DNA from: Owenia fusiformis
Taxonomy: Eukaryota; Annelida; Polychaeta; Sabellida; Oweniidae
DNA: 64,000 nucleotides
Assembly (NCBI GenBank): GCA_903813345.2
Contig: CAIIXF020000011.1
Span: 27,336,166 to 27,400,165 of the forward strand
Reading direction: 5' to 3'
Position numbers and translations under genes: made by a program. Shown here in pieces: positions 3,766-45,549 of the stretch (the stretch's first letter is position 1; every line of letters begins with the position of its first letter). The notes under the pieces are model-generated. The model saw nothing but the letters and a program-made list of their open reading frames with translations. It searched no databases and was not told the DNA's origin.

Positions 3766-5637
3766 ATGGATCAGATACCAGTAGAACGCACCGACAGTGG
3801 TGGAAGCAAGGGTGCCTACGTCTCAAGCATATACGTGAAACAGCCAACTAGCTCAAATGGCCCTTTTGGAAAAGACACCGGATCAAGTATATACGTGAAC
3901 CAAGAACAAGTTGACAAACAATTACCACCACCTCAACCTGAATTTGATGACGATGAATTCGATAGTGTTGACAACAATAATGACACAGATTTATGGCCAA
4001 TGCCTCCAAATGTTGTCGATGAAATAACTCTTTCAAACGGAACTATGTCAGGACAAGATATAGAAAGCAATGACGATATTGATACACGATTACAGTATAC
4101 AGTCAATGACAAGGTAGACGGCAATTTGATATTACACCCCCTCCAAAAGTTTGAGAACGTGTTTGTTAAAGGTTGTCTATGAATTATGAAGGGTGTTCTT
4201 TTGTAGAATGTCTTAAAATATTAATCTAAGAATTCTTGTGCGTTTCCTTCATGAAAATAACATGCAAAATATATTTAAATAATCAATTTCTCAAAGATAT
4301 TGTTTGCAATCAAAAAACTCGTCAAACAAAAATATTTTGAGTATGAAAGATATTTTTCTTAACTTTGAAATATACAATGTATAGATCTGACACTTCCTTT
4401 AACATATCATCGTTTTTCCTATAATCCCCTTTAATACATGTATCCAATAGGGTCCATACAGATCAGAGCCTTACACCGTTGGTATTTATGACATCCCTAA
4501 AAAGTCCAAAGGGAAGAACGGACGAACTTGCTGCATCATGTGTGTAGTTTTAGCTGTGATGTTTGTATTACTCATAGGAATTGCAATCTTAGGTAAGTGG
4601 TATACCATTTAGGTAGTCCGGTAAAGCATGTGAGTTGTGGAATAAGCTCTGATCACGATAAGCTCAAATGGTAAGTCAGAAAATCAACACATTATGTTTT
4701 GAAAAGTCAATATCAACTTGACTTCCAAAAGTTTGGAAACCGAAATTCGCCAATTTGACCGACGACGTGTATATTTTCCGTAACACATCACATTTAAAGA
4801 TGTACTTTGTTTCAAGATAACGGTTAGTGGTAATTTACCTTCTTCTAAGGCCACTATATCGTGGCCTTCGTCCAAAGATAAATCCCTGCATGTTTTTTAC
4901 TGTTGTATACGGGTCATGTCGTAATCATAAAATTTGAAATCAAATGTTCGCCATTTTCCACATCACAATTTGAATTGCGAGTCTTGGTCTTATTACCTCA
5001 CCAAAAATTCCAAAACACACACGAAGTGATCAACGTATTAGTTCATATCTTCTGGATTGCTAACTCAGAATCTACAGCCCCTTTTCAGAAACATCGATTA
5101 GACTAATTACATCGTATTTTTTTTTCACTTAACAAGTATGCATTTGTTTCCGTAAGAATCTCATTTATTTCAAAACTAATTATTTATACCACATCATAGT
5201 CAAAATTCAACAGTTAATATTTGTGATGAACTTCACCTTATTCATTCCATACACTCAAACCCGAATGTTTAATCAATTTATTTTATTTTTCAGTTTGGCG
5301 GCTTGTAGTAGATGATGGAAGTGGTGAGTAGACTAGTGTTCTTAGTCAACAATGTTTAAGATAAATCGAACATTTCCCATTCACATATGCTTTATAAAGG
5401 CATTTTAAATTGAAATGACACACTCATTCATTTCACTCGCTAGATAGTGATTGTTCAAGAGACCAATCGATATTTGCTGAAACTTCAAATGAAGACTTCA
5501 GATTTTCTACCTTTTAAACGAGAATTTTGAGTTTTGCAAGTGTTATTACTTATTTAGGTCTACTATTGTATTATTTATAAAAATGATTAATTATTTTTCA
5601 GGTGTTTCTTCAACAGATCAGTTAGTTGGCTCTAATG
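3766..5637 (+). CDS. Gene 1 exons 1-4: cytoplasmic tail, membrane span and juxtamembrane stalk
   Basis: Exons are 3766-4113, 4451-4592, 5294-5323 and 5602-5637. The start ATG is the first in frame and is preceded by GAACA. The 142-residue tail is acidic and Asn/Asp-rich. It holds two copies of SSIYV(K/N)Q (around residues 25 and 45) and IYDIPKK near the membrane, which look like SH2-type phosphotyrosine sites. A CCIMC cluster (possible palmitoylation) opens the hydrophobic span. The 30-nt exon 3 (WRLVVDDGS) and 36-nt exon 4 form a short outside stalk. Phase runs 0, then 1 from exon 2 onward, exactly as in gene 2. Intron 2 (4593-5293) holds nothing recognisable. Confidence 0.75.
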
Positions 5638-8600
5638 GTAAATACAAACGTTTCTTTTTTTCACCCATAAAAATTCAACTATTAATACAATCACGGGCTT
5701 TCAACATCTCTTGAAAGCCCTTGATACAATTCAAAGCACTTTGAACACAAGTCTTTAAGTTTGCCTTAGTACCAACGGTAGTAATAAAATCACCGCATGA
5801 AACAAGAGTGCTGCCATTCTGCTCTATCGATCAATTCCTCTCTGAAATAATACGAGCTGTGGCTATCAAGATCGGCTGTTACGTAGTTGTCTTTATATTG
5901 CTTACACACACATATAATCCGGGAATAATTTAGTCTTGACTCAACACCCCTCTTATCTACTCTTTTGTTGGTGAAGTAGACGGGGGGGGGGTTCCCAGTC
6001 TTGGAAGCAAGACTAGCAATTTAATTGTTTTGAATGCTTTTTATTAGTTGATGGCTATGGTCCATGGTCTCCATATACCTCATGTTCTGTCACATGTGGC
6101 GAGGGAATGAGACAAAGAACACGCGACTGTCTACTATCAGCTAATAACTGCACAGGAAATTTTGAAGATCAAACCTCGTGTACCAATCCAGCCTGTCCGG
6201 GTAAGTTTTATAAAAAACATTCTACTGTTAGTATACTGTGCTATATGTGTGCTTTAAAATGTGGCTAAACAATTTATTTATTCACTGCATATAAAGCAAA
6301 TGTTATGAAGCCGTGTATAAATGAATCATAATGAATGTTGTTAATGAAATAATTTTGGAATTTTAAAAGTACATTTATGAAGAGGAACATTGTTTCAAAC
6401 GTCAACTGTTTCTCGGTCAATTTAAATTCGAACCGTATTAATATAATTGTCAATAAGTAAAAGATTACGTAAAGTAAGAGTACACTTGAAATACCCATAT
6501 GTTTTTATTACATAGTTGATGGCAACTGGGGAAGCTGGGGCAACTGGCGAGCATGTTCTACCTCCTGTGGTATCGGATCACGTGATAGGTCAAGACCTTG
6601 TGACAATCCCTCTCCCGCCAATGGTGGACAACCTTGCTTCAATGCATCATCTAGTATACAATACGCTGATTGTAACCAACAAGCTTGTTCTATAAGTACG
6701 TATAGCTTTTCCATTGAAGGTTGTTCTAAAAAATACAACTCATTTAACCTACATATGTATTTGGCGAGACACCAGCAAAACTAAAAAAAACATTGACAAC
6801 TATTCAAAAACATAGGTCGATGATGATTTCGTAGTACTTTTCATTTCTCTAGGATATGCCTGACCATGTCTTTCTTTTATCAATAGACGACTGTGAAAGG
6901 GGAGAATGGAGTTCATGGAAAAGCGGGTTCTGTTCGATAACATGTGGAGGGGGAGTTCGCGAGGAGAGGAGACAAAGGTCCTACATTGTCCAAGGGGGCC
7001 CATGTATAGGGAATGAAACTGAATCAAGAACAGCGATATGTAACACACAAATATGCACGAGTAAGTTCCAAAAATTAGAATACAAGGTTGGCCTGTTGTG
7101 ACAGATCAAACACATCGAAGTTAGGAACAATCCAATATTGTCCTCACAATGTAGCGTGAAATAACATGACATGACGTGAACATTACATTGATAATAATAC
7201 AACTTTTAAATCAAAAGGTAAAAAAAATAAAATAGATGACGTCACCAAGTATCTTCGGAGCTTCTATTTTCAGATATTGAGCTCGGAGACTCTTGTAGCG
7301 GAGGAGGACTCTGCAAGGATGGTAATGCTGAATGTAATAATGACACATGTGCGTGTAAGGATATGCATTACAATAACGGAACTGTATGTGTCATAAGTGA
7401 GTCAAATATTTGCTAATGTTGATCTTTTTATAAGCTAAGTTGAGACAGAAGAGTAAAACTACGTGTAAAAAGTTCCTCTAATTTTGCATAAAACTATTTC
7501 CCGACACTTTTACAAAGTTCACTAAATCTAAAAAAAATTGGTACACTTTTTGGAGTTATTTTGTATTAACAAGCATATTAAATAACTTGAGATACCTTTA
7601 TATTGTCTGTTTTAGAATTAGATCTGGAGTCAGCTTGTACAAGTGAAGGTCAATGTGCTGACCAAAATTCTCAATGTGCAGATACGGGTAATGGAACAAT
7701 ATGCGCCTGCAAGTTAACACATTTTAAAAATACAACTGGAACATGCACTGAAAGTAAGTTAAGATACTTTATTTTTATTCTGCTTTTTGTTTTCAGCAAT
7801 ACTCCATTTACATATCACAAATAAAATTGGCTTGACATAATCGTGGATACACTAAAACGAAACCAAGGCAAAAAATAATAAACAATATCAACGCATTCAA
7901 CTTAGTAACAGGGTAGTATGAAACATATACACAACATACTCCAACACAATACAATACTCGATAATACATTATAATAAAATATTTGGAGGTGCTTTCCTAA
8001 GGGTATAAAATGGCATTTTCATTATATTGCATATTGTGTAAAACTATGGTAATGCATATTACTTTCCAGAATTCGCTCTTGACCAGATTTGCTCTGATTC
8101 CAATGAGTGTGCGACAGATAATGCTGAATGTAGTAATGTCACATCTCCCAGTACATGCCTTTGTTTACGAGAGACACATTTCCCAAAAGAAGGAGCATGT
8201 GAAGAAAGTATGGCTCGTATTTGTTTATTTTCAGACATGATTTTTATTGTTCAAAAATATCGTGAACATTGTAAATAATCATCGAAAATGCTATTTTTAT
8301 TATATGGAGATGATTGATTTTTTTCACTCACTTATATAATTATTCACCTATAAACTCACATACATTTTTTCAATATTATCTAAAATTGATGAGTTTGACA
8401 TTATTTATGGATGATTGGGATATATTGACAAAATGGTTAATTCCAGAGGTCGGTCTGAACATGCCATGCACAGGAGAAGATGGAGAATGTTCTGATCGCA
8501 ATGCAGAGTGTAGCAGTATTGGGAATAGTCAAATATGTTACTGCAAAGACACACATTATGTGAGAGATGGAACTTGTGTCGAAAGTGAGTCTAGAATAGT

Positions 8601-11600
8601 ACTCTGGAATGACCGCTTATGCTATCGTTATCAATTACACAATTTCACAGAGAAATAATTGAACTAGCAACAGGGAACACATTCATTTCCTACAACAGTT
8701 TGACTATGTAACGATAATCTAGATCAGAAGTACAGGATCAACCCATGGCTCAATGAATTTTTTGGTTTACATTTATCTTGAAGTGAACCAGCATACACCT
8801 CTTCTTAACCTAATCCATATCCATTTGTATCTAAAACACACAATTATGATGACTTTCACATCGATTTCTTCACATCATATAAGACAGATTCCCTGAATAT
8901 ATCATAAACATGATAATTTACTATTTCTACGAGTGAAGGATAAATAGAGATTATCCTATATGAGGTTCAGGATATTGGGATTATCCCGAGGCCAATATAA
9001 TATATCTGCCCGAGGGCCGTAGGTCCCGAGGGTAGATATATTATATAGGCCAAGGGATAATCCCAATATCCTGAACCGACAAATATTCATCTCCAGTTTT
9101 GTATTCCTGTTTCTTTCCTATTCAAATCTTTGATTATTAACGCCGGTACACTGCTCCTTCCCTTCTTTAAAGCATCAAACAGGTCGAGATTGTCTGCGTT
9201 TTTCTCCATTGTCGTTTACAGTATGCGAACGTTACAAAAAAGAACCAATACGGGAACAGCGATTATGACGTAGCGGGCAGATATAGTATATCTGCCCGCT
9301 CGGAGCGGGACGTAAAGCTATATCTGCCCGCGGATGAAAATATAAGTTTTTACAAACCGGCTTTATGTACCCGTAACACGTCCAAGTATGGGATAAAAAT
9401 GTATACGCTCTTTATCGAGATACTTTCTTTGCATGAATTTCAAAACCATTGAAGACGACTACATAAATGTTAAGCTTGGATGATTTGCATTTTTAGGAAC
9501 GGTTCTTAACAAGGCATGCAACGTAACTTCTGAATGCATGATTGACAATTCGAAGTGCACAGATGTAGGGAACGGAAAATTATGTACTTGTGTAGATTCT
9601 CATTATGAAAATGGAGATGTCTGTTCATTAAGTAAGAATATGCAACATCAGAATACATCATATGTATATTTCAAATACATTGTCCGTTGTAAAACTCAAT
9701 TTAGAATATCATGTAATGTAATCCAAAATTGGATACAGATTCTCTTTTTTGTAATTTAGGAAAATGTATCCCCTAATGCTGTGAAATTCATAACTGCATT
9801 TGTTATATCGTTCTAGAGAGGTCTGTGGGACAGGCTTGTGAGGGGGACAACAATTGTGCGGACCCTAATTCCGAATGCAGCGACAATGGAGGATCAAATC
9901 TCTGCTCCTGTTTAGATACATTCTATGACAATAACGGAGTGTGCGCTTCAAGTAAGATTATATTCGATCTTGCTTTGGTTTTTAAATGGTGATGCCTGTT
10001 TCAAAATACATCTCATAGATTTCTTGGATAGTCCAGTACACTAAATATGTCAACGCTAGAAGTGCATGTTTGATTTTAAACTATAGCCATTTACAAGCTC
10101 GGTCTTATTATTGTGTTGTATCATTTCAAGGATACTAGTCAGTTATTCTTCCTCAAATAAGAGCAACATTTTCCACAGCTAACCATCGTGATATTGGTTC
10201 TCGATTGAAGGGGAAGGGGGATGTCAGACATTATTTCTTTTCATGTTATATCAGGGTGGCATTATGTCGTGGTTTTGGGATGTATAGGGTCTATTTTATA
10301 TTTTTATGACAGGTTTACAAGTTTAGAGTTTGATTTTCTTGCTAGGTTTCTTTACAATTTTTGGTCCTTTCTCTTTGTCGTTTGTGCTTAGATATTGGAT
10401 AATTTAGTATTTACTTTCAGAAATTGACCTCAACCAGCCATGTAGAGGAATACCTGGAGAATGTGCAATCAACAATTCAGAGTGCAGCACTGTCGAGAAT
10501 AATCAAATATGTTACTGCAAAGATTTATACTATGAGGGTGATGGAGTTTGTTTTCCAAGTAAGTCCCTGAGATCACGGACCATTCTGAGATCCTCGTATT
10601 CAACAACTTACCTCTTTATTATATCAAACGTTTTGAAAGCACTAGCCAAATTTACCGTCTTTTATACTCATTCCAACCATTTGAGCGTTTTTACTGGTTT
10701 TTAATTGCCAAGCACATTCTGGTATGCCATAGCCCCTCTTATCTGCCGTTTGCGTTCACTTTGGATGGATAAAGACAAATGGCTATATCGCGATGTGTCA
10801 ATCATCTTAATTATCTTTATTTTTAGGACCAATGCTTAACCAGGCATGTAATGCAACTAGTACATGTATGATTGATAATACACAATGCACAGATTTGGGA
10901 AACGGACCAGTCTGTAATTGTGTAGATTCTCATTATAATAATGGAAGTGTCTGCGTATCAAGTAAGAACCCAAAAATAGTAATCAAGTATTTGTTATCAT
11001 TTTTAATAATCTCTAAACCAAATATATAAAATATAGGATATCATGTAGTTATCTATGTTCATAATTAACGTAAATAAATCCTGAATAGATGCGAATACTA
11101 GTATTATTCGAATATTGATAATCGAACAGGTGTGTTATTTTTCGTTATATATGACATTTATTTAGTTTTTCAGATGCGCTTATTGTTAATGTAATTTCAG
11201 AACGTGGCCTTAACGAGTCCTGCACTGCAAATGGACAGTGTGCCGACGCGAATGCTGAATGTAAGGGCATTGGAAGTGAACTCATATGCTCATGTAGTGA
11301 TGACTATTTTGAGTCTGAAGGAGTATGTACGTTGAGTAAGTAACACTTCGCTGCCAATTCTTACAGTTAGGCATTGGTTTAACCATTGTCAGATAAGACA
11401 GAACTTTTCATCTCCTGTATCTGCGATCTCTATTTTCTACATCTGAATCACGGCACCTTATCTACATAAGGCTATGGGTTAACATATCAATCTATATGAA
11501 CAACTAACCTCTATTACAGAACGTGGTCTTAACGATGCATGTCTAGCAAACGACCAGTGTGCTGACGCAAATGCTGAATGTAAGGTCACTGGAAGTGAGC

Positions 11601-14600
11601 GCATATGCTCATGTAGTGATGACTATTTTGAGTCTCAAGGAGTGTGCACGTTAAGTAAGTAACACTTCGCTGCCAATATATTAAGCTTGAATGAAACATG
11701 TTACACAGGAGTTGAGTGTAAAGGCACTGGGCGTGAACGCATATGTGCATGTAGTGATGACTATTTTGAGTCTGAAGGAGTGTGCACGTTAAGTAAGTAC
11801 CACTTCGCTGTCAATATATCATGGTACGTTCACACCAACGGCGCTTTGATGGCGCTTTAAAGCGGCTTGTAAAGCGGCACCAAAGCGTAACAAAGCTTAA
11901 TTAAAGCGTCAGGGTCGTAATAGGTCGTAGAAAAGCTCGGGAGTAAAGCGGGATATTCGGCAAGAGCGCTAAAAAATTTAAACTGTTTAAGCGTTCGCAC
12001 CAACGGCGCTTTGATGGCGCTTTAAAGCGGATTGTAAAGCGGCACCAAAGCGTAACAAAGCTTGATTAAAGCGTCGGGATCGTAATAGGTCGTAGAAAAG
12101 TTCGGAGTAAAGCGGGATACTCGGCAAGAGCGCCAAAAAATGTTAAACTGTTTAAAAATTTTGGGCGCTCTGTTACGAATTGATTGAAGCGCCGAGAGCG
12201 TATCAAAGCTTAACAAACCGTAACAAAGCTCAACAAAGCTTGACTCAAAGCGTAGGAAAGCTTAACACAGCTTGGTTCAAAGCGGGGACCCCAGTCTATT
12301 CACGGTCTGTTATCACTTGACACGCTTCGTTAAGATGTCTCAAGATTTGCTACGATCTGGCATGAAGATCTGACACGAGGTTCGACGCTTTCATCAATAT
12401 CTGACACTCTTTGTTACACTTTCCTGAGGGACTCTCAAGCTTTCCAACGAATTGAGACGCTTTAATCAAGGATTGAAACGCTTTGCTAGGCTTTGTTACG
12501 CTTGAAAGTTTTCACACGCTATATCACGCCGTGCGACAAACGTCATGTCTTCTTCAGATATGTCATGCTCTGGTCCATCTGGAATTTCTGGATCTCGTTG
12601 TTCTGCCATCGTGTTCTCGAGTCAAAGATGCAATGGTTTTATGGATCTACTGCATCTTTATATAGTCATTGGATCAAAAGCGGCATGGAATCGGCGATCT
12701 CGACATTTTCCAATGCGTGACAGAGCTTAACAGAGCTTAACAATGCACAACAGAGTTTTGCAATCGTATCAGAGCCTGATTTAAAGCGTCATAATCGCAT
12801 CAAAGCGTAATAATGCTTATCAAAGCTTTTCAAAGCGTGATTTCAAGCGTAACAAAGCCTGATCAAAGCGGGATCAAAGCGTGAGGAACCTTTTAGAGCT
12901 ATGTTAAGCTTTCCTACGCTTTGGATCAAGTTTTTCTGAGCTTTGCTACGGTTTGTTAAGCTTTGATACGCTCTCGGCGCTTAATCGATTCGTAACAGAG
13001 CGCCCAAAATTTTTTAAGAGTTTAAAATTTTTTGGCGCTCTTGCCGAATATCCCGTTTTACTCTGAGCTTTTCTACGACCTATTACGACCCCGACGCTTT
13101 AATCAAACTTTGTTACGCTTTGGTGCCGCTTTACAATCCGCTTTAAAGCGCCATCAAAGCGCCGTTGGTATGAAGAAAAATGACAAAAATGACGGCGCTT
13201 TGCTCGCCGATTTAAAGCGTGGCATTCGCCGTTGGTGTGAACGTACCTTCAAGCAAGAGGTGACTAAATAGTCTATATACCCTTGGCGGATGGATATGGA
13301 AACTCAAACACTAAATGGAACATGCTTTCAGTTAGGCACTGGTTTAAACATTGTCACATGAGACACAACTTCCTTTCCTGTATCTGTGATTTCTATTTAC
13401 TACATCTAAAACGCTGCACCGTTATCTACATTGGGCTGAGTTTACATACCAATCTAAATGAACAACTAACCTCTATTACAGAACGTGGTCTTAACGATGC
13501 ATGTTTAGCAAACGAACAGTGTGCTGATGAGAATGCTGAATGTAAAGGCACTGGCAGTGAACGCATATGTTCATGTAGTGATGACTATTTTGAGTCTGAA
13601 GGAGTGTGCACGTTGAGTAAGTAACACTTCGCTGTCAATTCTTACAGTTAGGCATTGGGTTTAATAATTGTCGACAGATAAGACAGAACGTTTCCCTTCC
13701 AGTACTACTAGTATCTGCGATCTCTATTTACTACATCTAAATCATGGCACCTTATCTACTTAAGGCTGTGGGTTAACATATCAATCTAAATGAACAACTA
13801 AACCTCTATTACAGAACGTGGTCTTAACGATGCATGTTTAGCAGACGAACAGTGTGCTAACGAGAATGCTGAATGTAAGGGCACTGGCAGTGAACGCATA
13901 TGTTCATGTAGTGATGACTATTTTGAGTCTGAAGGAGTATGTACGTTGAGTAAGTAACACTTCGCTGCCAATTCTTACAGTTAGGCATTGGGTTTAATAA
14001 TTGTCGACAGATAAGACAGAACGTTTCCCTTCCTGTACTACTAGTATCTACAATCTCTATTTACTACATCTAAATCATTGCACCTTATCTACATAAGGCT
14101 ATGGGTTAACATATCAATCTATATGAACAACTAAACCTCTATTACAGAACGTGGTCTTAACGATGCATGTTTAGCAAATGAACAGTGTGCGGATGAGAAT
14201 GCTGAATGTAAAGGCACTGGCAGTGAACGCATATGTTCATGTAGTGATGACTATTTTGAGTCTGAAGGAGTATGTACGTTGAGTAAGTAAAACTTCGCTG
14301 CCAATATATTAAGCTTGAATGAAACATGCTGGACAGTTACAAATTGGTTTAACCATTGTCAGATAAGACAAAACTTCCTTTCCTGTATCTGTGATTTCTA
14401 TTGACCACATCTAAAACACTGCACCTTTATCTACATTGGGTTGAGTTTACATATCAATCTAAATGAACAACTAACCTCTATTACAGAACGTGGTCTTAAC
14501 GATGCATGTTTAGCAAACGAACACTGTGCTGATGAGAATGCTGAATGTAAAGGCACTGGCAGTGAACGCATATGTTCATGTAGTGATGACTATTTTGACT

Positions 14601-20600: not shown

Positions 20601-23600
20601 CAATTGAATTTGCTAACTTTATTTAACAAAAAATTGATATGTTTCTTCAGGTTCAACAAAGTTATAGGGCTTTAAAGTCAAAATTGTTTTTCAAAAAACC
20701 TCTCCCATTGAAATAACACAGGAGGTGAAAAATTATTTTCAAAAATGACTTTGAAGCGCTGTAACTTTAATATTCATTAAATAAACCAAACACTTAATGT
20801 TCAAAAAAGTTAGACAATTCAATTTTCTATATAAAAATATTTTTTGCCGAATCTTTTACTGAAAAGATATCCTGATTTTTGATTTGCCCCAAACCCTCCA
20901 TTTCCCATTGGATTACATGGGAATGACGATTTTCAAACATTCATCAAATTTATCATCAATTTTCGACCTATTGTAATTGAGGAAAAAAATTGAGAAAATT
21001 TGGAGGTATTGGAAATAAAGTCAAGTTACTTTTCCATCAATATTATAAGCTATTTCATCGCCGGTTAGGTAAATAAAAATTCAAACGTAAAGAGGCTTTT
21101 ACACGTAGTTCAATGGGGGAAAAGGGTTGCCAAACTTATGGAGGGGAGTGTATGTATTCATAGCAAGACTAAATAATATGTATCCATAAATTTTAACTGT
21201 ATATTGCAAAATGGTGTCAAAAATATAATAATATTCTCAAGAGTTCTTTCATGCTTTTAATTTTCAGTCGAGTGTGTTTGGGGTGAATGGTCTAAAATCT
21301 CAACTGCACCATGTTCAGTTACGTGTGGAGGTGGTACACAACTTGAGACCTGGGAACGGAGGTACATTAATGAAGGGGAAGCGTGTAACGGAACTGAAGA
21401 GGATAATAGAACTGCAGCGTGCAATGTAGAATCCTGTCCGGGTAAAAGATCTATATTTATAGCAATTTCTGGTTAAGACTATATATTAGATAACAAGAAT
21501 CGATAATAAAACTGGTACTGCTTAAATATGCAGGCAATGTTTCTAAAGCATAACCATCATACTTTTCTTCATTTGCAGTCGAGTGTGTTTGGGGAGAATG
21601 GACTAAAATCGGAACTGCACCATGTTCAGTTACTTGTGGTGGCGGTACAGAACTGGAGGTCTGGCAAAGGAAATACATTAATGAAGTGGAAGCGTGTAAC
21701 GGAACTGAGGAGGACACGCGGACTGCGGCGTGCAGTACAGAATCATGCCCAGGTAAGAGATACATATCCGTGGCCATACGTTTTGACCGGAAATGTGACC
21801 TATATTAAAGAATACTGATTATAGGGCTTGGTATCACATGTTCTCAATGCTTTTTCATTTGCAGTCGAGTGTGTTTGGGGTGAATGGTCTACAATTTCAA
21901 CTGCATCATGTTCAGTTACGTGTGGAGGTGGTACACAGCTCGAGACCTGGGAACGGAGGTACATTAATGAAGGGGAAGCGTGTAACGGAACTGAGGAAGA
22001 CACAAGGACTGCGACGTGCAATATAGAAACCTGTCCATGTGAGTGGGGAGAGTTTAGTGAATGGGAAGGCGGAAATTGCACTGAAGACTGTTTGATAATT
22101 GAACAAAGGACAAGAAACTACGGAGGGGGTGAAAATTGTCCAAGTGATACCGAAACTGAAACACGTACCGTGGAATGTACCAAGTCACCATGTAGAAGTA
22201 AGACAATGCAATTAGTGTTTTATAATAACAATGTGTTATCTCAGTCGTATCTCAAAGCTCTTTGTATATGTAATTTTATATGTTTTGTCTAAAAATTGAA
22301 AAGCCGCATGATCAATGTTCAATATTCTTTTCATTATCACTCCCATACACCCTTCATTCTTCCTTAAAGGGGTAAGTTGTGATTTCGAACCAAGCTCATC
22401 TTGTGGGTACACCGATGATAGTAACACTGGGAACGTTTGGCTAGCGAATAGAGGGACAACTCCAACTTCGTATACTGGACCAGATGCGGATCACACTTCG
22501 GGGGAATGTACGCATTGGCTTTCGTTTTCAGAGTGTCTCACTAAGTTTGTAGTATTTCATTTAATACACTCATGAATTATCAGAATCAGTTTTGTTGTGG
22601 GGTGCTTTCGTTTGTTTAGCGTATTGAATTAGGATTCATAGATACTACTATCCTTTGGTATCATTCAGTATTAATAATTATTTTTCAAGTTTTCTTTCTC
22701 ATATTAGGAAGTATGTGTTTACCTTTCAGCTGATGGAACGTATATTTACATGGAAGGTAATGATATGCTATCTGGCGCAGCAATCAGAATAGCAACCCCC
22801 ATATTTGAGAGTTATGGTACAAGTTGTTTATCATTCTGGTACCATATGAAAGGCTACTACATTGGTTCACTCAGTATCTATGTTGAGGATGAGGCAAGGT
22901 GAGAAATGATGAACAATGGCAGTAATTAGAAACGGTTAACATAACAACTTATCTCAATGTTCTTGGACAACTTACTTTTAACCTTTATTCATAAGTAGCA
23001 TACACAAACAAAATCTGCACAAGTCTATGAAGTCAATGCTAAAACTCACTAAGCCCTTTAAAGTTTTAAATAGTTTAATTGTTTTTACTTGCATAATAAA
23101 TTACATACGCGCATAGATTCTGGAGGGCCGAGGCTATAGGCATTATTACCCTCCCTCCCCCCTCTCCCCCCTCTCCCAGAGTCACAGAGGAACATAATAT
23201 ACATATGACACTGTGCTATACTGAATATGAAACCTTTCAATATCTTTAATTGATCCTTGTACTTACAGTTCCATGTTCTCCCTAGACCAAAAGGTATGGT
23301 CATCATTTGGTCATAGAGGCGTGTTATGGAATTATGCCTACATCGATATAGAGAACCGAAGTAGCTTCCGAGCTGTGTTTGAAGCCATACGTGGACCTGC
23401 TATTAACTCCGATATTGCAATTGACGATATCAACATTAAAGAAGGACCTTGTGAAGTAACAGATAATGGTAAGATTAAAAAATTACATAAAAGCAATTGG
23501 TGTCCCATCATTGGCCTTTATTTGCCCGATTGAACATGATGGTGGTGTTAGGGAAATTGTTGTTATGGGGTCATTTTAAACTCATTGAGAGAAGGACTTA

Positions 23601-26600
23601 AAATTATACGTTCACATTCAAAGACTGACAAAAATATGTTACTTTACTTCTCTTTTTGCACATTTTGCAATTTGCAAATATTTGATGTTGCAAAATTTGG
23701 ACACCATTTAACATGAATTTCAGAAATCAATTAAGCATACTAAGATATTACCCAAGGATTGTACTTGTCATATTGTAAGAAGTTTACACGGTATTTACCA
23801 GTGAGAGAACAAGAACCTCGACATTTAAATAGTGAAAACATTGTATCTGTTTGAATTATAAATCACAAATAGTTCGAATTTTACAGTGACGATCGTACGC
23901 CTTTCCAATCGGTTCTCAACAAAATATGCATTTCATTAGTCCTGCACGAAACAAAAACTTCGTGAATACCAATATATTTTCATATCGGTATATCTGATCG
24001 GGCAATAAAGAACTGATTTTAATAACTTAATGGAGTATGATATCATTTCTAGATGTAACTTGTGACTTTGAGGACCAGTATTTGTGTGGGTATAGTCAAA
24101 GTCAAGAAGATACTCTGGAATGGTCCTGGGAAACCATAGCAACACCGACCAGTTCCACGGGATGCAGTAGTGACCATACAAACGGTATTTTTATCTTAAT
24201 ACATTTATGAATTTTTTCATTGTATTCAATCAGTCAATTGCGATCAGAATTGGCCTTGATATTACTGTGTTTTATGAACTAGACCACCTCTGGTAAGTCA
24301 ATCTGAAATTACTCATGAATAGCGTTTACAAAGAACCTGTTCATATTCTTCAATTACTTCGGATCGGACATTTACGACTTTGATAAGTCCCAAAATATTT
24401 TATAATCCATAGAAGAGTCTCATAGAAATTACGTAAAGTCATAGACGTATGTGTAAGAAAGAAACTACAATAAAATGATTGCAAAATATGTAGTTCATTG
24501 AATCAAATTCTCATGAAATATGCAATAAACATAAATCTGTTTTCGACCAAAGGGGACGGCACTGGACATTTTCTCTATATCGAAGCAAGCGAGGTGCAAG
24601 CTGGTAGTCAGGCGGCACTTACAAGTCCTAAATCAGAATTAAGTCCCGGTGACAGGAAATGTCTCACGTGGTGGTATCACATGAATGGCGTCAATACTGG
24701 CGATTTACTGGTCAATGCAGATATTGCATCAAACAAGAGCACAATAGCAACGTGGTCAAGAAGTGGAGCACAGGGTAACACGTGGCTTCAAGGCGAATTG
24801 ACAGTTGGCGCTGATGGTTCACTTGCTGTTACATTCAGTTTTTCTGCTACTAGAGGCTCTGGTGGCTCAAAGGGCGACATTTGCTTAGATGATATAGTGT
24901 TGAAGGATGGCCCATGTTGTAAGTCGGTTCAGTTACTAATTTTACTGTACTCTCTTTTTCGATGCTGACCTTTCATACGGGCATTGGGCCGATATTTGTT
25001 TTCGATTTTTGCTTGCAAATATGTTAGATTCGGAGAAATATATTGACTTCTACTTGTGTAAAGCCAGTAAAGCAACTGTCTGCCAAGGTTTTAAAGAAAC
25101 TTATTGAAGTATACATATTGAGGTCTTGCCTAGTAGTATAAGAATGCCTCAAATCTTAAACTATTGCCTCACCTAGCCCCCGCATAATTTTAGATTCTGG
25201 CTCCGCCTCTGTATTCGATCATTTACATTCACTTTTAGCAAAAGAGGAGTGTATTTGGGGTGCATGGTCCAAAAACTCAACGTCATCGTGCTCTGTGACA
25301 TGTGGAGGAGGTATATTAGAGGAAACTTGGCAAAGAACCTCCACTTCGGGAGGGCCATGTAGTGAAACTGATATTGAAATAAGAACCATAGCCTGCAGTG
25401 AAGAGCCCTGTGAAATTGGTGATTTGATTTATCTTACAAACACAATCTCATTTAGTCCAATGACATATTGTGCCAAAAAATGAAGATAGATCATTTAATA
25501 TAATGAAAATTAAAGTATGCAACGAGACCAATGCACTCATTTGAAGCTGAAACAAGACTTTATATATATTATAATATAGCTTTTATTTCAATTTTACATT
25601 GCTACACTATTCACTACAGTCGCTAGAGTCGCAATAAATGTTCTTTTGAGTGTTTGAATGATGAACAAAATCAACTGTTTTTAAAATTCTTAACCAACAA
25701 AGAGATTCGACTCAGTACCAGTTATTGGATCGATGTACCTTATCTGAATAATATTCATGTTGCATTATAGATTGCGCATGGGGAGAGTTCAGTGAATGGG
25801 AAGGGGGCAATTGTACTGAAGACTGTAAGATAGTGGAACAAAGGATCAGATATTATGGCGGAGATGCAGAGTGTCCAGCTGATAACGAAACTGAAACGCG
25901 TACCGTGGAATGCACCAAGTCACCCTGTAGACGTAAGACCTTGAAAATAATATTTTGAAGAGATTAATTTGAGCATATGTACTAATGATTTATGAGAGAT
26001 TTAAAGCACTGGGGTTTTTCCTTGTAACCCTGAAGCCAAGGCCTTCAGGCCTATCTTTAGGTTAGCAAACAAAATATTCATGTAGTATAATTTACACACA
26101 TCCACAATGTTAAAGCATTTAAATACAACAAGAAATGATAAGATTCTAGCCCTCAAACTATGAACATTTTTTCTTGCATAATATGAATCAAATGCTTGAT
26201 TAATCAACGATGTAATAGTAACTGTAATTTGCTTTGTAAATTACCAAAGCAATTGGCAATACGTGACACGATGACAATAGGATAGTTTCTAAATAGCAGA
26301 AAAACCAATGAAATCCAGTGCTGCCATCTTTTATTAAGCTTTTAACTTGGGCTAGAGTTCCATTCACTTACATTCTAAAATCTTGGAAAAGTGGCTTAAT
26401 TTCATGGTTTATCAAAGTGTGTTAGTTGAATCTGTAAAAAACTTGAGTGATATACCACATGATGACCCTTTTATGTACATGTTGTGATTAAACATTTTAC
26501 TTAGCTTTGATCAATTCGTTTCCAAAGTAATAGGTGTTTGACAGTTAGCTCATGGAAGCCAAAAATGTAGCTCTCAAATAAACTTGATTTTACTGCTACA

Positions 26601-29600
26601 GATGGATAATTTGGAGTTTTAATCTATATATATATCTGTGTGAAGTTATCAGGAACATGATGGACTAATTCGACTAATTCGGTGTCTTTTCATGTCATCG
26701 TAAAACACTGTATTTGAAACATTTGAAATAAAGTGAATTGAATTGAAAAAAAACAAACAAAAACATGCAAATGTTATTTGACATACAAATAACCCAAGGT
26801 TTCAAAGAATTCTAGCATTGCATCTATGGACATTTGGCCCAAGTTTTTTTAAATTGTCATAGAAAATTATTCAAATTACATAACTGTGTAAATCAAAGCT
26901 ATTGTAGGAGAAAACAATTCACTGAATTCAAATATGCCATTTAAAAGAAGGTAAAGTAAGTCATTAGAGGTCTAATTTGCAAGTCTCTTAAAATCTCACG
27001 AAAAACGAGATTTAGTGAGATTTCAAAAGCTATATAGAAACTATGCTATTGTATTATTGTACAATTCAATTGAATATGTACCACACTAAACCTTAAAACT
27101 ATACATCTACATGTATCTATAGGTATCAGCTGTGATTTCCAATCAATCTCCGCATGTAGCTTTTCGAATGACATCTCCACCGGATACTTGTGGAGGGAGG
27201 GCAACGGGCAAACAGCAACTAGTTTTACAGGACCAGATTCTGATCACACAACTGGCCAAGGTAATTGTTCTGGTTATTCGAATCGATGCAAAATATAGAT
27301 ATAGTTTGGAACAAAATAAATGACAGGTGGATTTTCTATCACCATATCCAAACCATGGTGTTTTGAAAGCCCTATAGTCTAAAATATTGTCTAAATACAT
27401 ATCCCTTAACATTTGTATATATTACATTTTTATATACTCTCATCCACTTATGAATGACCTCTTTAAATTTCTCTTATTTTTAACATGGGGAATCCACACT
27501 TCAGCAAATCTATGTGTCGTTATTTTTGTTCCAAACTCACGGTGTTATAGCATGACGGTTACGTCAAGGCGATTTGCAAAATGTTGCGGTAACGATAACA
27601 AAAAATGGCGGATAGGAAAGACAGCATGTCCTCTTTCTCGCCTGTAGGCAATATTCACAGATAAGATTTTCTTTTTAACTAGTTCCATTCGGTGACGTAC
27701 ACTCCCCTCCATAAGTTTGGCAACCTTTTTCCCCCATTGAACTACGTGTTAAAGCCTCTTTACCTTTGAATTTTTATTTACTTAACCTGCGATGAAAATA
27801 CTTATACTATTGATGGAAAAAAAGATAAGATTTGTATTGTCTTCAATTTCATGGATTCATCTTCTAAATGAGACATATTATGTATCTTTTTAATTTAAAA
27901 AGAGGGAACATTTTGAAAACACTTTCATTTGCATCATGTTAGCGCAGACCTTGAAATTTCATCACTTGGTTTCATGAAACCAATTACATAATCTGTACAT
28001 TGAAACTGTACAATGATGATGACATAGATTTTAGCACAATATATACATATAGACCACATAGCCAAATAAAACTTTGAAATAAACAAATAAGCATTTTCCA
28101 AGGTTTTACCAAATCTAGTTCTATAAGCCAAACACCGATCGTTTTCTAATTTATGCTGGGTTTCCAGAAAGTGGGAAATACATTTACCTGGAAGCGTCAG
28201 ATGTGCCGAGAGAGGGAGAGGTGCGGATATCCACTCCAGTGTTCGAGAGTTATGGAGAGTCTTGTGTGACATTCTGGTATCACATGAAAGGGTACTACAT
28301 GGGGACCGTCAATGTTTACGTTGAGGACGAGTCAAGGTGACAACATATTGCTGTTCAATAAGATATTACAGCTTATTCTATACGATAGAGTATTATGGAC
28401 ACAACCGACAATGTCAAAGACATAGTATATCGCCCCAAATATTAAATAAAACCAGACATTATTAGAGAAGGCTAAATTACCGAAGATCACAACTACGGAT
28501 AAATAATGAAGATAATCTGTGAATGTGTGTATACCCTATAAGATGTGACGTATATCTTCATATCATATTTTCTTACAGCTCAGTGTTCTCACTGGATGAA
28601 AAGGTTTGGTCATCATTTGGTCACAGAGGTCTTCTATGGAACTTTGCTTACATCGATATTCCAAACCGAAGCACTTTTAGAATCGTCTTTGAAGGTGTGA
28701 GAGGCAGTGCTTCAAATTCTGATGCCGCCATTGATGATGTACTGATCAGAGAAGGCCCGTGTACAGTTGCAGGTTTAGGTAAAGCATCTTAGGATATTTT
28801 GCTACAAAATAACATATCTTAATCACCTAGATATAAGAATGCATACAAGTAGAACAAGCCACAAAAACTCAAAGTAAATCATCTTCCAATGAAGCCTCCT
28901 AAATTATGTTAAATGATTTCAAATTGTTAATAACCTGTAATATATTTTTGAAGAGGCGATCATTGGAAAAATGCATATAACATATGTATAATACCTAAGT
29001 ACTGTAATACAACCGTCCCTCAATCGCCACATCTCCGTACTGTAGCAGTTCGTCCGGTGCTTACCCTGGCACGATTGCACTGAACGAGTTATTCAATTGC
29101 AAAGATTACAGGATCGAAAGAAACAAATAAGACTCTTTACTCATAAACCAATTGTTATGTCATGCCGTATAAAACCTTAATCTTCAATTGAATGGTATTG
29201 CATGCTTCCTATTTAAGGTGTGTCTTGTGACTTTGAGGACCAGTATTTATGTGGGTATAGTCAAAGTCAAGAAGATACTCTGGAATGGTCCTGGGAAACC
29301 ATAGCAACACCGACCACTTCCACGGGATGCAGTAGTGATCATACAAACGGTACGTAAACTAAGTTAGCCCCGAAAAATGATTTCGGCATATTTTTCGTAA
29401 TTTACGATATGACTTTTATGTGGAAACAATCTTTGACGTCGTCTGTAATCAGCCACGCTAATTATAACTGAAGCTAGACAATGATACATATCGAACAATA
29501 CATGTATATGTTACACAAAACATGATGATAATATTGTGATTTTCAGGTGACGGGACAGGCCATTATCTTTACATTGAAGCAAGCAACATACAAGCGGGGA

Positions 29601-29908
29601 GAAGAGCTGAACTTACAAGTGCTTTATCAGAATTTAATCCCGGTGACAAGAAATGTCTCACGTGGTGGTATCACATGAATGGCGTCAATACTGGCGATTT
29701 ACTGGTCAATGCAGATATTGCATCAAACAAGAGCACCATAGCAACTTGGTCAAGAAGTGGAGCACAGGGTAACACGTGGCTTCAAGGCGAATTGACAGTT
29801 AGCCCTGGAGTTGATGTTACATTCAGCTTTTCTGCTACAAGGGGCTCTGGGGGCTCAAAAGGCGATATATGTTTAGACGATATATTATTAACGGATGGGG
29901 AGTGCTGA
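3766..29908 (+). CDS. Gene 1: giant type II membrane protein with TSP1, EB/EGF-like and MAM modules
   Basis: Fifty-two exons can be joined from the ATG at 3766 to the TGA at 29906-29908. Together they give 8283 nt (2760 residues), with every junction in phase and every intron GT..AG. Order: cytoplasmic tail (1-142), membrane span (about 145-166), three TSP1 (186-354), EB/EGF-like array (355-1461), nine TSP1 (1462-1978), MAM1-MAM2 (1979-2313), two TSP1 (2314-2427), MAM3-MAM4 (2428-2760). There is no signal peptide; the single hydrophobic segment after a Lys-rich stretch implies N-inside/C-outside topology. TSP1, EB and MAM are extracellular adhesion or binding modules, so a cell-surface receptor or adhesion role is inferred. 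I recognise no named orthologue. Exon details are in the block entries. The least certain exons are the half EB exon (11709-11792) and exon 1's donor at 4114. Confidence 0.85.
6048..7060 (+). CDS. Gene 1 exons 5-7: three TSP1 modules
   Basis: Exons 6048-6200, 6516-6695 and 6887-7060 each encode one thrombospondin type 1 repeat with phase 1 at both ends. They show the signatures WSPYTSCSVTCGEG, WGNWRACSTSCGIG and WSSWKSGFCSITCGGG, each followed by Arg-rich strands and the closing cysteines. TSP1 modules bind glycosaminoglycans and other matrix ligands, and their W-x-x-W and CSVTCG motifs are classical C-mannosylation and O-fucosylation sites. The first two modules match the first two of gene 2 in order and exon boundaries, which supports common descent. 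Confidence 0.88.
7274..11335 (+). CDS. Gene 1 exons 8-16: nine diverged EB/EGF-like modules
   Basis: Exons are 7274-7396, 7616-7753, 8070-8207, 8447-8584, 9497-9631, 9817-9951, 10421-10558, 10827-10961 and 11201-11335. They are 123-138 nt long, all phase 1-1, one module each. Each has six cysteines in a C-x5-C-x6-C-x8-C-x-C-x10-C type pattern with a central NAEC or N(S/T)xC, the layout of EB or EGF-like modules in invertebrate secreted proteins. These copies differ from one another much more than the following exons do, so they are the older part of the array. Exons 12 and 15 resemble each other most (both have the block VDSHY), suggesting a separate small duplication. Introns carry no genes. 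Confidence 0.85.
8964..9334. repeat. Palindromic element in gene 1 intron 11
   Basis: GGTTCAGGATATTGGGATTA near 8964 is mirrored as its reverse complement ending at 9077, forming a stem of about 25 bp and weaker inner pairing. A second palindrome centred on GCAGATATAGTATATCTGC lies at about 9272-9334, with a further copy of the TATATCTGCCCG arm. This looks like a degraded foldback element. It lengthens an intron that is otherwise typical for the array. Confidence 0.5.
11520..17759 (+). CDS. Gene 1 exons 17-31: near-identical tandem EB/EGF-like exon array
   Basis: Exons are 11520-11654, 11709-11792 (half), 13482-13616, 13815-13949, 14148-14282, 14487-14621, 14826-14960, 15146-15280, 15485-15619, 15880-16014, 16219-16353, 16539-16673, 16878-17012, 17273-17413 and 17625-17759. 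Full copies are 135 nt (one is 141). They encode variants of a 45-residue module beginning RGLNDAC and ending EGVCTLS. Introns are also nearly identical between copies, showing recent unequal exchange with intron included. All exons are phase 1-1, so copy number can change freely. The exon at 17273 uses a donor moved 6 nt downstream. The half exon lacks the first two cysteines and its acceptor is weak, so it may be skipped without harm to the frame. Confidence 0.85.
11823..13247. mobile_element. Large foldback (inverted-repeat) element with AAAGCG-type internal repeats
   Basis: The left end GGTACGTTCACACCAACGGC is mirrored at the right end (reverse complement finishing at 13247). Both arms are filled with degenerate repeats of AAAGCG/CGCTTT and TAACAAAGC. 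It encodes no transposase, so it is non-autonomous. The unoccupied form of the same intron is seen after the exons at 15485 and 16878 (CGCTGTCAATATATA followed by AGCACGAGGTGAC), which proves it is an insertion. The flanks suggest a 3-bp target duplication (TCA), but this is not certain. Smaller relatives lie at 38474-38750, 42469-42559 and 42613-42721. Confidence 0.8.
14487..17272 (+). repeat. Two tandem copies of a 1393-bp four-exon higher-order repeat
   Basis: Exon starts 14487, 14826, 15146 and 15485 recur at 15880, 16219, 16539 and 16878, each exactly 1393 bp later. A third unit begins with the exon at 17273, again 1393 bp after 15880. Diagnostic variants travel with the unit: GYFESEGLC in the third exon and AGExVECKGI in the fourth. 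The constant offset across exons and introns means almost no indels since duplication, so the event is recent on the scale of this array. Confidence 0.85.
18036..18161 (+). CDS. Gene 1 exon 32: last, divergent EB/EGF-like module
   Basis: This 126-nt phase 1-1 exon encodes a 42-residue six-cysteine module (LAVGETCDRGETC opening, GGVC closing). It is as diverged as the first nine modules, so the homogenised copies are bracketed by older ones on both sides. It ends with the donor GTATGT and is followed by a 723-bp intron containing a dead TSP1 exon. Confidence 0.8.
18779..18860 (+). pseudogene. Decayed TSP1 exon remnant in gene 1 intron 32
   Basis: After a good acceptor (CATTTCAG) the sequence follows the start of the next real TSP1 exon (18885): same GTAGT start, AATTCATCTACA and CTGTGACATGTGGGGG blocks. 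An in-frame TGA at 18802-18804 and loss of the second half make it non-coding. No plausible donor follows. It records a duplicated TSP1 exon that died. Confidence 0.7.
18885..22197 (+). CDS. Gene 1 exons 33-40: nine TSP1 modules, six nearly identical
   Basis: Exons are 18885-19058, 19208-19381, 19501-19674, 19796-19969, 20091-20264, 21268-21441, 21579-21752 (174 nt each) and 21865-22197 (333 nt, two modules). All are phase 1-1. Each opens with CVWGEW or a variant, has CSVTCGGG and a conserved NEG(E/G)xC, and closes with SCP. The copies at 19208, 19501, 19796, 20091 and 21268 differ by only a few bases, with near-identical introns, so this is a second recently amplified array. The last exon fuses a ninth module (CEWGEFSEWEGGNC) with no intron, whereas the same pair later in the gene (25239 and 25771) is split by one. 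Confidence 0.87.
20275..21150. mobile_element. 876-bp palindromic MITE flanked by TA, inside a TSP1-array intron
   Basis: The ends are inverted repeats beginning C(A/T)CTCCCCTCCATAAGTTTG. The two halves pair over most of the element, through AATTTATCATCAATTTTCGA and its complement. TA flanks both sides (20273-20274 and 21151-21152). The neighbouring array introns show the empty form GATATATGTATTCAT with a single TA. This fits a TA-duplicating, Tc1/mariner-like non-autonomous element. It has no coding capacity. A one-ended fragment of the same family is at 27700-27820. Confidence 0.8.
22370..23468 (+). CDS. Gene 1 exons 41-43: MAM domain 1
   Basis: Exons are 22370-22507, 22730-22898 and 23269-23468 (phases 1-1, 1-2, 2-1). 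The product shows the MAM landmarks: CDFE near the start, CGY, the segment SFWYHMKGYY, a WSSFGHRG strand, and IAIDDI..EGPC at the end. MAM domains (meprin, A5, receptor phosphatase mu) are jelly-roll adhesion modules of about 160-170 residues, matching this length (169). The three-exon layout repeats at 27123-28778 and in gene 2. Confidence 0.88.
24053..24918 (+). CDS. Gene 1 exons 44-45: MAM domain 2
   Basis: Exons 24053-24184 and 24553-24918 encode a second MAM type with only one internal intron. It has CDFED, CGY, WSWETIATP, then CLTWWYHMNG, FSFSATRG and ICLDDI..DGPC. It is close in sequence to MAM4 at the end of the gene; the first exons of the two are nearly identical. The acceptor at 24551-24552 is preceded by only a moderate pyrimidine tract but gives perfect phase. 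Confidence 0.87.
25239..25932 (+). CDS. Gene 1 exons 46-47: two TSP1 modules
   Basis: Exons 25239-25418 (CIWGAWSKNS, CSVTCGGG) and 25771-25932 (CAWGEFSEWEGGNC, TEDC) encode one module each. The second matches the ninth module of the preceding TSP1 array, and MAM-MAM follows in both places. The gene's end is therefore a duplicated block TSP1-TSP1-MAM-MAM. The intron after exon 47 (25933-27122) has no gene. Around 26725-26760 it has an AATAAA-like and A-rich stretch after GAATTGAATTGA, possibly an old retroelement tail. Confidence 0.85.
27123..28778 (+). CDS. Gene 1 exons 48-50: MAM domain 3
   Basis: Exons are 27123-27260, 28168-28336 and 28579-28778, with the same lengths (138, 169, 200 nt) and phases as MAM1. 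Landmarks are CDFQ, TFWYHMKGYYMG, WSSFGHRG and AAIDDVLI..GPC. The usual CGY near the start reads CSF here. The 907-bp intron between its first two exons contains the MITE fragment at 27700-27820. Confidence 0.86.
27700..27820 (+). mobile_element. Truncated one-ended copy of the TA-flanked MITE
   Basis: Starting after a TA at 27698-27699, the sequence CACTCCCCTCCATAAGTTTG and about 100 more bases match the left end of the element at 20275, with very few changes. Similarity stops near TGATGGAAA. The other end is missing. Confidence 0.75.
29218..29908 (+). CDS. Gene 1 exons 51-52: MAM domain 4 and stop codon
   Basis: Exons 29218-29349 and 29547-29908 match MAM2 in layout and closely in sequence (WSWETIATP, CLTWWYHMNG, FSFSATRG, ICLDDI). 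The reading frame ends in GECTGA-type fashion (Glu-Cys-stop), so the protein finishes directly at the final MAM cysteine with no C-terminal tail or GPI signal. Gene 2 ends the same way. Confidence 0.88.
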
Positions 29909-30358: not shown

Positions 30359-30550
30359 TTCTACCTACCTGCAAACAAAAGTTCTTATTTTTGATATGTA
30401 TATTGCAAAGTATCTCGTAGAATTAATTGATGATTAGGTATTAGCCCAATTGGTTTTGTGAAACCCTTTGATCAGAACATGTAAAGAGTAATGTAAAGAA
30501 ACATCGGTCCAAAATATTTTACACTTTTGGAGTTAGTCCGCTTACCCTAC

Positions 30551-34425: not shown

Positions 34426-35282
34426 ATGGAGGTACATATAATACTCTCGATATTATAACCGATTCATGGTTCAAGTGTTTCTCATTTTTATTTGTCTTCA
34501 TATATTTTGATCAAAATTATTATAACCGATTCATGGTTCAAGTGTTTCTCATTTTTATTTGTCTTCATATATTTTGATCAAAATAAATCAATTTTGAAAT
34601 GATTATATTCTAGGAACCTTCTGTCAAACCATCCGAGGTTTGTGTTCTTGTGCCAAATAACCATGATGTTAAAATAAAAAGGAGCAGACGCATGCGTAGT
34701 AATGATATCAAACGCAGTAAAGTATTCAGCTGTTTGATTACGTCACTTATCATCTGTGTGTTGATTCTAGGATTATGTCTGTTTGGTAAGAAATACTTAA
34801 TAATTAATAAATAATTAATACGAGGATTATGTTTGAAATGTAAATGTGACTTGTAAATACAAGAACATAGGGACAATTCTCATACAGTATACGGTCCACA
34901 TTATCATTTGGTCTTATAATTGTGCCATAACGTAGTTTTTACTTGTTCTTGAATATTTCACAAACAAACATTCAATTGCCAATATTTCTGTTTTCAGCTT
35001 GGTTTCTACTAAGAGAACAGCAAACAAGTAAGTGTTTTCATATTATCAAATATAAAAGTTGATAACAGGAATAACAGCTACAGTGTGAACCATATAATAA
35101 AAGTATCTTTATTTCAGGAAAATGGAATAGCAATATGATTGGCATTAGTCTAAGAAAATAACATATACAACATTCTTCCAACCATGAACAAAGACATTGT
35201 TTTCGTATATCATTAGATTAATATTCATGTTTTCCAGACGAAGCTGCTTCTATTGCAGACAACAATTTAATCGGAAATGAAA
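34426..35282 (+). CDS. Gene 2 exons 1-4: tail, membrane span, stalk
   Basis: ATG-GAG at 34426-34431 is followed by the donor GTACAT and would join in phase 0 to 34614. Exon 2 encodes a basic stretch (KIKRSRRMRSNDIKRSK) followed by a hydrophobic span starting CLITSLIICVLILG, giving an inside-positive, type II orientation. Exon 3 is 30 nt, the same size and phase as exon 3 of gene 1, and starts with Trp in the same place. Exon 4 is 45 nt. No tyrosine motifs like those of gene 1 occur in this shorter tail. Confidence 0.65.
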
Positions 35283-45208: not shown

Positions 45209-45549
45209 ATTGCACATTACATTTAAACTGGGAACACTTTTAATTGGTCAAGAGAAAACGAGACATACAATCAATCGGACAATCAACCTGTTAAAATGTG
45301 AGAGATCTTCTTAGTTTGACTTATCATACACTACCATAATGCTATACAGTTACATAATACACTTCCTTCAAATGCGAATAATGAGACAATTCGCGATTTC
45401 AGTGAATACTATTATTATGCTATTATATTTTTAACAATATATCATTATTTTTTATTCAATAGCTACTGCGATATTCATAGTTTATATCTAACAGGACTAG
45501 AAAAACAGCAACTCCACTAAACAAAATGTATTTTGATAATTAATGGCCA

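Follow-up and report, generated by a model that had tools for sequence, protein, structure and literature searches.

Enteropeptidase (enterokinase) is a membrane protein of type II, and its extracellular region is a mosaic. It carries SEA, CUB, LDL-receptor, and serine-protease parts but is not known to have EB or TSP1 arrays. MDGA1 and neuropilin-1 function in cell-cell recognition; they possess a single MAM domain behind Ig or CUB/discoidin domains and are GPI-anchored or type I proteins. The MAM domains of these and other nearest solved relatives of the protein described here serve cell-cell contact. The insect scavenger receptor class C (Sf-SR-C) has a shorter ectodomain in the other orientation and contains CCP and somatomedin-B modules. 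It is described as a single-span protein with a calcium ion held in its MAM domain (PMC11203654).

Here, we analysed a window of 64 kb (the whole stretch of DNA under study), in which one 52-exon animal gene, hereafter the big gene, probably specifies a type II membrane protein of 2760 aa with a single span. The parts of this protein are arranged in the order of a tail, a span, three TSP1 modules, 25 EB/EGF-like modules, nine TSP1 modules, two MAM domains, two TSP1 modules, two MAM domains, and the stop codon.

Gene structure

Exons were enumerated on the + strand as open stretches bounded by AG and GT, and the best non-overlapping candidates were kept and then joined. At a score of 15 or higher, the interval 3766-29908 contained 49 non-overlapping candidates on the + strand and none on the − strand, although the codon table of the score was partly trained on exons of the big gene (one of the 28 training stretches was left out, its interval having reached a stop codon) and hence favours the + strand. 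As the control, five first-order Markov sequences contained 0-1 candidate exons each at the same score. The exon signal of this interval exceeds chance.

The curated model consists of 52 exons on the + strand, from 3766-4113 to 29547-29908, with 2760 codons followed by TGA. All 51 introns are of the GT-AG type, and the longest is 1689 nt. Phase 1 was found at 48 of the 51 junctions, phase 2 at two (within MAM 1 and MAM 3), and phase 0 at one (exon 1 to exon 2). A dynamic-programming gene model was also run on the bare sequence between 3.4 and 31 kb with 18 parameter settings, and genes with more than 200 coding nt were listed. The first listed gene began at 3766 in all settings, and a single gene with the ends 3766 and 29908 was obtained in 15 of the 18. 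Under the strictest exon penalty, the model returned 52 exons, 51 of which were identical to those of the curated set. As looser settings added up to 19 small exons (71 in total), the exact exon number is penalty-dependent. The coordinates, strand, 52 exons, and 2760 residues proposed in the initial annotation were thus reproduced.

Membrane span and topology

Exon 1 (3766..4113, + strand), located in an open 139-codon frame, provides the ATG and 116 aa of the predicted cytosolic tail and ends in phase 0. The remaining tail, GPYRSEPYTVGIYDIPKKSKGKNGRT, and a single membrane span, CCIMCVVLAVMFVLLIGIAIL, are encoded by exon 2 (4451..4592, + strand), as judged from the sequence, a hydropathy scan, and the counterpart exon in a sister gene located downstream (see below). 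Two juxtamembrane exons follow on the same strand: exon 3 (5294..5323) of 30 nt, where the sister gene also has 30 nt in the same phase, and exon 4 (5602..5637) of 36 nt, encoding VSSTDQLVGSN. No homologue of exon 1 was identified within the window, and no first exon could be assigned to the sister gene with confidence.

The tail of 142 aa contains seven tyrosines (Y18, 23, 43, 111, 119, 124, and 129) and no Cys, and ends with KKSKGKNGRT directly before the span of approximately 21 hydrophobic residues. In the sister gene, KIKRSRRMRSNDIKRSK precedes the span, and basic residues are located on the N-side of the span in both genes alike. The positive-inside pattern and the Cys-free tail fit a type II protein, and we infer this orientation for the big-gene protein. 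The single span and inward N-terminus claimed in the initial annotation were supported by the basic residues before the span, the Cys-free tail, and hydropathy, but not proved. The tail motifs IYVNQ and IYDIP presumably resemble Grb2- and Crk-type SH2 sites; since they may occur by chance among seven tyrosines, they are regarded as a hint only. The ectodomain of approximately 2600 aa contains 252 Cys, 34 N-glycosylation sequons, 12 WxxW motifs, and 12 CxxS/TCG motifs.

The hydrophobic stretch would act as a signal peptide, and the array would be released into the matrix, if translation started at the internal Met 4538 or if the span were cleaved. Met 4538 is located at the start of the hydrophobic stretch and is followed by CVVLAVMFVLLIGIAIL, forming one of only two + strand signal-peptide-like starts in the interval, and in the sister gene, a Met likewise stands shortly ahead of the span, which follows RRMRSNDIKRSK. 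Mosaics of TSP1, EGF, and MAM modules are also frequent in matrix proteins, and MAM- and TSP1-bearing proteins are described from the coral skeleton (PMC4890752). However, exon 1 gives 116 clean coding codons, and the gene started with it in every gene-model setting, and the span of approximately 21 residues, having a basic N side in both genes, looks more like a signal anchor. A secreted or matrix protein is considered unlikely.

Module composition

All modules are encoded on the + strand. The three TSP1 modules next to the juxtamembrane exons (t1, 6048..6200; t2, 6516..6695; t3, 6887..7060) were recognized by both Pfam TSP_1 and our own profile. They are followed by eight diverged EB/EGF-like modules of a single exon each (7274..10961: 7274-7396, 7616-7753, 8070-8207, 8447-8584, 9497-9631, 9817-9951, 10421-10558, and 10827-10961), which share six invariant Cys and were assigned by Pfam EB on their piece and by our own profile. 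The same profile detected two more EB modules and a truncated EB exon in 11201..11792 (11201-11335, 11520-11654, and 11709-11792, respectively); the truncated exon lacks the first two Cys and may be skipped in splicing. An alternative acceptor at 11174 for one EB exon was dropped in favour of 11201, which yields the standard 135 nt, and the donor 11780 for the truncated exon was dropped as it broke the frame.

In 13482..17759, 13 near-identical EB modules were detected with our own profile, each of 135 nt except one of 141 nt (starts 13482, 13815, 14148, 14487, 14826, 15146, 15485, 15880, 16219, 16539, 16878, 17273, and 17625). The identity among these exons is 90-100%, and the array includes two copies of a 1393-bp four-exon repeat (14487..17272) that are 98.6% identical. 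The last, diverged EB module (18036..18161), which was submitted to Pfam with the TSP1 array, scored 22.5 bits, below the cut-off of 24.3, and was assigned by our own profile and the alignment. Seven single-exon TSP1 modules (18885..21752: 18885-19058, 19208-19381, 19501-19674, 19796-19969, 20091-20264, 21268-21441, and 21579-21752) were found by Pfam TSP_1 (seven stretches in a nine-module piece) and our own profile. Next to these, a single exon (21865..22197) holds two TSP1 modules, as indicated by our own profile and by a predicted fold with Foldseek; the CSxTCGGG stretch is missing from the second module, t12. Lost modules were considered as an explanation of the gaps at 11.8-13.4 kb and 20.3-21.3 kb, an idea dropped because no credible profile row was located there.

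The C-terminal part contains four MAM domains, all found by Pfam MAM: MAM 1 (22370..23468: 22370-22507, 22730-22898, and 23269-23468), MAM 2 (24053..24918: 24053-24184 and 24553-24918), MAM 3 (27123..28778: 27123-27260, 28168-28336, and 28579-28778), and MAM 4 (29218..29908: 29218-29349 and 29547-29908). Two TSP1 modules, t13 (25239-25418) and t14 (25771-25932), are located at 25239..25932 between MAM 2 and MAM 3 and were recognized by Pfam (one stretch) and our own profile. The TGA comes straight after the last Cys of MAM 4, in agreement with the earlier claim that the order ends exactly at a MAM cysteine.

The Pfam scan was performed in four pieces with 13 of the 25 EB modules, the other 12 being near-identical array copies (13815-17759). 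MAM (PF00629) was detected with E-values of 1.4e-74 and 1.6e-72 (249.6 and 243 bits; cut-off 26.4), with two stretches in each of two pieces, and EB (PF01683) with 1.7e-23 (82.9 bits; cut-off 24.3), with four stretches in the first piece. For TSP_1 (PF00090), the E-values were 9.9e-17, 3.1e-37, and 1.3e-4 (61.3, 127, and 22.6 bits, respectively; cut-off 21.6), and 11 stretches were individually detected at E 0.01, compared with 14 modules. A serine protease domain at the C-terminus was not indicated, as no protease family appeared in the four pieces and the protein stops at the MAM cysteine. In the six frames of the 64 kb, our own profiles, which were built from the same modules (the EB profile from 16 of the 25 EB exons) and show completeness rather than identity, yielded 24 full and one truncated EB modules, 14 TSP1 modules in the big gene and three in the sister gene, and four MAM domains in the big gene and two in the sister gene. 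The other profile rows were weak (E 0.037 or worse), the best being a MAM-profile row at 18117-18221. The domain search of the product that the initial annotation had called for placed EB, TSP_1, and MAM above the curated cut-offs, and the 14 TSP1, about 24 EB/EGF-like, and four MAM modules counted there were confirmed, with Pfam providing the identity and our own profiles the numbers.

Six Cys were invariant in the alignment of 24 of the 25 EB modules, that is, all but the truncated one. For the predicted fold of one EB module (pLDDT 85), EGF-like chains ranked first, weakly (best E 0.17, query TM approximately 0.6). A profile of the 24 EB modules matched Rh5-interacting protein, a protein containing EGF-like domains, in the PDB (1.1e-4). 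The model of the double-TSP1 exon (pLDDT 87) matched the TSRs of thrombospondin-1 and properdin in Foldseek (E 4.1e-4 to 9.4e-4 for the top five chains); the mutual placing of its two modules is unreliable because of the low query TM (0.28-0.31). The TSP1 folding alignment consisted of 13 stretches, in which 14 of the 17 TSP1 modules of the window were represented.

Evolution of the arrays and MAM domains

The dN/dS was 0.16 among the 13 array EB exons (pS 0.148, pN 0.026) and 0.26 among the seven TSP1 exons (0.25 without the most diverged member), and the module arrays are under purifying selection. The identity of 90-100% among the 13 central EB exons, together with the repeat, indicates that tandem duplication was recent. 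With two repeat copies that are 98.6% identical and an exon pair within them, 14826/16219, whose identity rounds to 100%, the EB copy number of an otherwise real gene may be an assembly matter, i.e., the 1393-bp repeat may have been expanded or collapsed, and 2760 aa may represent one allele or an artefact. However, the copies are imperfect and the array EB exons differ mainly at synonymous sites, and we regard this explanation as rather improbable.

The TSP1-TSP1-MAM-MAM block is present twice in the big gene. MAM 1 and MAM 3 share 61% amino-acid identity, with pS of 0.66, 0.75, and 0.78 for the three exons, and are old copies as judged from this divergence. Between MAM 2 and MAM 4, the identity is 87%, and the first exons of the two (24053-24184 and 29218-29349) differ at 3 of 25 synonymous sites (pS 0.12). 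In the second exon (24553-24918 and 29547-29908), the first 96 nt have diverged to a pS of 0.50, and a middle part is nearly identical; a 195-nt count in this exon (pS 0.18, pN 0.114) crosses a 6-nt length difference and thus overstates the divergence. The introns and flanks around MAM 2 and MAM 4 showed no similarity above shuffled sequence in four tests (74 to 198 of 200 shuffles reached the score), and the positive controls, the exon and an EB intron, beat the shuffles (0 of 200 reached the score). The simplest reading would be exon-confined gene conversion between MAM 2 and MAM 4, via cDNA or short tracts. A term search of the literature on exon-confined or cDNA-mediated conversion in repeat proteins gave no match.

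Sister gene and integrity of the big gene

The initial annotation also claimed a smaller tandem paralogue, and such a gene was indeed identified at 34614..43910 (+ strand; 837 aa, as found without its first exon) using Pfam MAM (PF00629; 234.7 bits, cut-off 26.4), our own profiles, and exon comparison. It repeats the span exon, the 30-nt exon, three TSP1 modules, two MAM domains, and the stop. The membrane-span exon (34614-34785) is entered in phase 0, left in phase 1, and followed by a 30-nt exon (34998-35027), as in the big gene. Downstream on the + strand are a 45-nt exon (35238-35282), a TSP1 exon (35581-35736), and a 1110-nt exon (36272-37381) encoding a TSP1 module, a 254-aa Ser/Thr/Pro-rich stretch (39%), and another TSP1 module. 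The first MAM domain is encoded by 37565-37702, 37827-37992, and 42129-42325, and the second by 42975-43106 and 43543-43910 on the same strand. The order of this MAM pair is the same as that in the big gene, and here too the stop, TGA, lies right behind the last Cys. In the 1110-nt exon, the stretch between the two TSP1 modules has no further Cys, and the big gene uses separate exons in this region; the stretch may be a mucin-like spacer that replaces the EB/TSP1 arrays. A candidate for a piece of the first exon at 32178-32264 was not accepted owing to its weak signal.

Among the TSP1 modules of the sister gene, p1 is nearest to t1 (identity 51%, tree support 0.913) and p2 to t2 (43%, 0.942). 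In the tree, p3 clusters with t12/t14, which directly precede the MAM pairs (support 0.889), and its raw identity is highest to t3 (47%). The big gene probably grew from a shorter ancestor like the sister gene (span-TSP1-TSP1-TSP1-MAM-MAM) via block and tandem duplication of modules.

The joins of the 52 exons do stay in frame, as the initial annotation emphasized with the term 'perfect phase', but this carries little weight as proof, since 48 of the 51 junctions are in phase 1. Modules can thereby be added, skipped, or borrowed from a neighbour gene with the frame unbroken, and since phase-1 modules stay in frame however they are joined, a continuous frame is no proof of a single mRNA. The stronger argument for one gene, on the sequence comparison, is a sister gene that shares both the start and the end. 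This gene repeats the same plan in 9.3 kb, and we infer from it a single transcript across 3766-29908. One gene is also suggested by the sole break point of the gene model, which falls inside a TSP1 array, and by the lack of any intron exceeding 1689 nt. Furthermore, two signal-peptide-like starts passed the thresholds on the + strand of 3.7-29.9 kb, both confined to the membrane-span exon; this is a weak test, as the − strand also has two.

In the other three of the 18 gene-model settings and in an initial run, the gene was split into 3766-20667 and 21113-29908. The end exons of this split are weak (17 and 37 nt) and come with no signal peptide. Neighbouring genes, two or more in number and compatible in their phase-1 modules, e.g., one ending in the TSP1 array at approximately 20.3-20.7 kb and another starting at approximately 21.1 kb, may have been joined in error there, as wrong joins between such modules would stay invisible and the intron 20264-21268 (1003 nt) is the third longest, but we judge this very unlikely: the TSP1 exon at 21268 is 93-96% identical to the four preceding ones from 19208 on, so that a break would cut one array, an exon resembling a signal peptide with which a second extracellular protein could begin was not found, and the sister gene links the same N-terminal and C-terminal parts.

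Neighbouring sequences

A gene resembling glutamate carboxypeptidase II is located at 48556-55856, with the tail MANQR, a span, a PA domain, an M28 peptidase, and a transferrin-receptor dimerisation domain (Pfam on pieces; the exon joins are partly provisional). By eye, its presumed zinc-ligand stretches NHRDAW, VDPSSG, AEEYG, NMDSS, and LYHSAYE look kept. A 42-bp tandem repeat of 12.5 copies (53533-54058) is located between exons of this gene. A dispersed repeat of approximately 690 bp, 87% identical and rich in short GAACG-like motifs, occurs at 30543-31226 and 56611-57283. Short AAAGCG-motif dispersed repeats at 11815-13242, 38470-38750, and 42483-42724 are located in introns of the big gene and the sister gene, including the longest intron of each, with both orientations represented, and are probably a mobile element. 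On the − strand, an open frame of 329 codons (44227-45216) resembles by eye the C-terminal part of a non-LTR retroelement; it gave no Pfam match at E 0.01. Relatives of this frame and of the second-MAM alignment were sought in viral contigs and bacterial/archaeal genomes, where pattern matches appeared and none was confirmed by tblastn. tRNA and Rfam scans of the whole 64-kb window gave 0 matches.

Proposed function and comparison with known proteins

Here, we propose a model in which the 142-aa tail would lie inside the cell and approximately 2600 aa, tethered at the N-terminus, outside. From the membrane outward, three TSP1 modules, a chain of 25 EB modules, and nine TSP1 modules would lead to two MAM-MAM heads parted by two TSP1 modules. 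Hypothetically, the distal MAM pairs may bind a partner, such as another cell, the matrix, or a soluble or microbial ligand, the TSP1 modules may contribute matrix or glycan contacts, the EB/TSP1 array may set the reach, and the tail tyrosines may relay a signal. On this architecture, the protein most likely serves as a type II receptor for adhesion or recognition at a distance, its MAM head being placed distally on a long stalk of TSP1 and EGF modules; both its surface location and its nature as a receptor are predicted. It is a long shot that the locus represents a family of type II recognition receptors arranged in tandem and special to one animal lineage, in which EB copy number would tune the reach, exon-confined and possibly cDNA-mediated conversion would keep the heads alike, and a very long receptor for self/non-self or cell contact would vary between individuals.

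The locus provides a well-defined case of very long animal surface proteins made by shuffling and multiplying phase-1 exons, and the short adjoining sister gene may retain the ancestral plan. Should the array prove variable among individuals, tuning of cell contact or recognition would be a candidate role for it. The second MAM domains, alike in their exons only, offer a clear natural case for how exons homogenise without introns.

In sequence, the MAM domain of the enteropeptidase heavy chain is similar to MAM 3 (1e-16) and MAM 4 (7.8e-16); its SEA, CUB, LDL-receptor, and protease parts were absent from the four pieces of the big-gene protein scanned with Pfam. The nearest MAM domains of known structure include those of MDGA1 (5oj2; 1.2e-24 with MAM 3 and 3.6e-21 with MAM 4) and neuropilin-1 (5l73; 8.7e-18 and 4.2e-13, respectively), and the MAM domain of Sf-SR-C (8yt7) matched with 5.4e-20 and 9.9e-14, respectively. 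No protein with the same module order was met in the literature searched by domain names (partial coverage, word matching). The building blocks are ordinary, and it may be that only this animal group combines them in such a way. A membrane mosaic with long MAM repeats is also described for a skeletal membrane protein of coral (MAM/LDL-receptor) and for its counterparts in Nematostella, whereas the modules that accompany MAM in the coral protein are named there as LDL-receptor, fibronectin, EGF, and trefoil modules, with no mention of TSP1 or EB arrays in that part of the source (PMC4890752). In the coral case, two neighbouring MAM gene models are described as having proved to be one gene (PMC4890752), which may serve as a useful parallel to the big gene.
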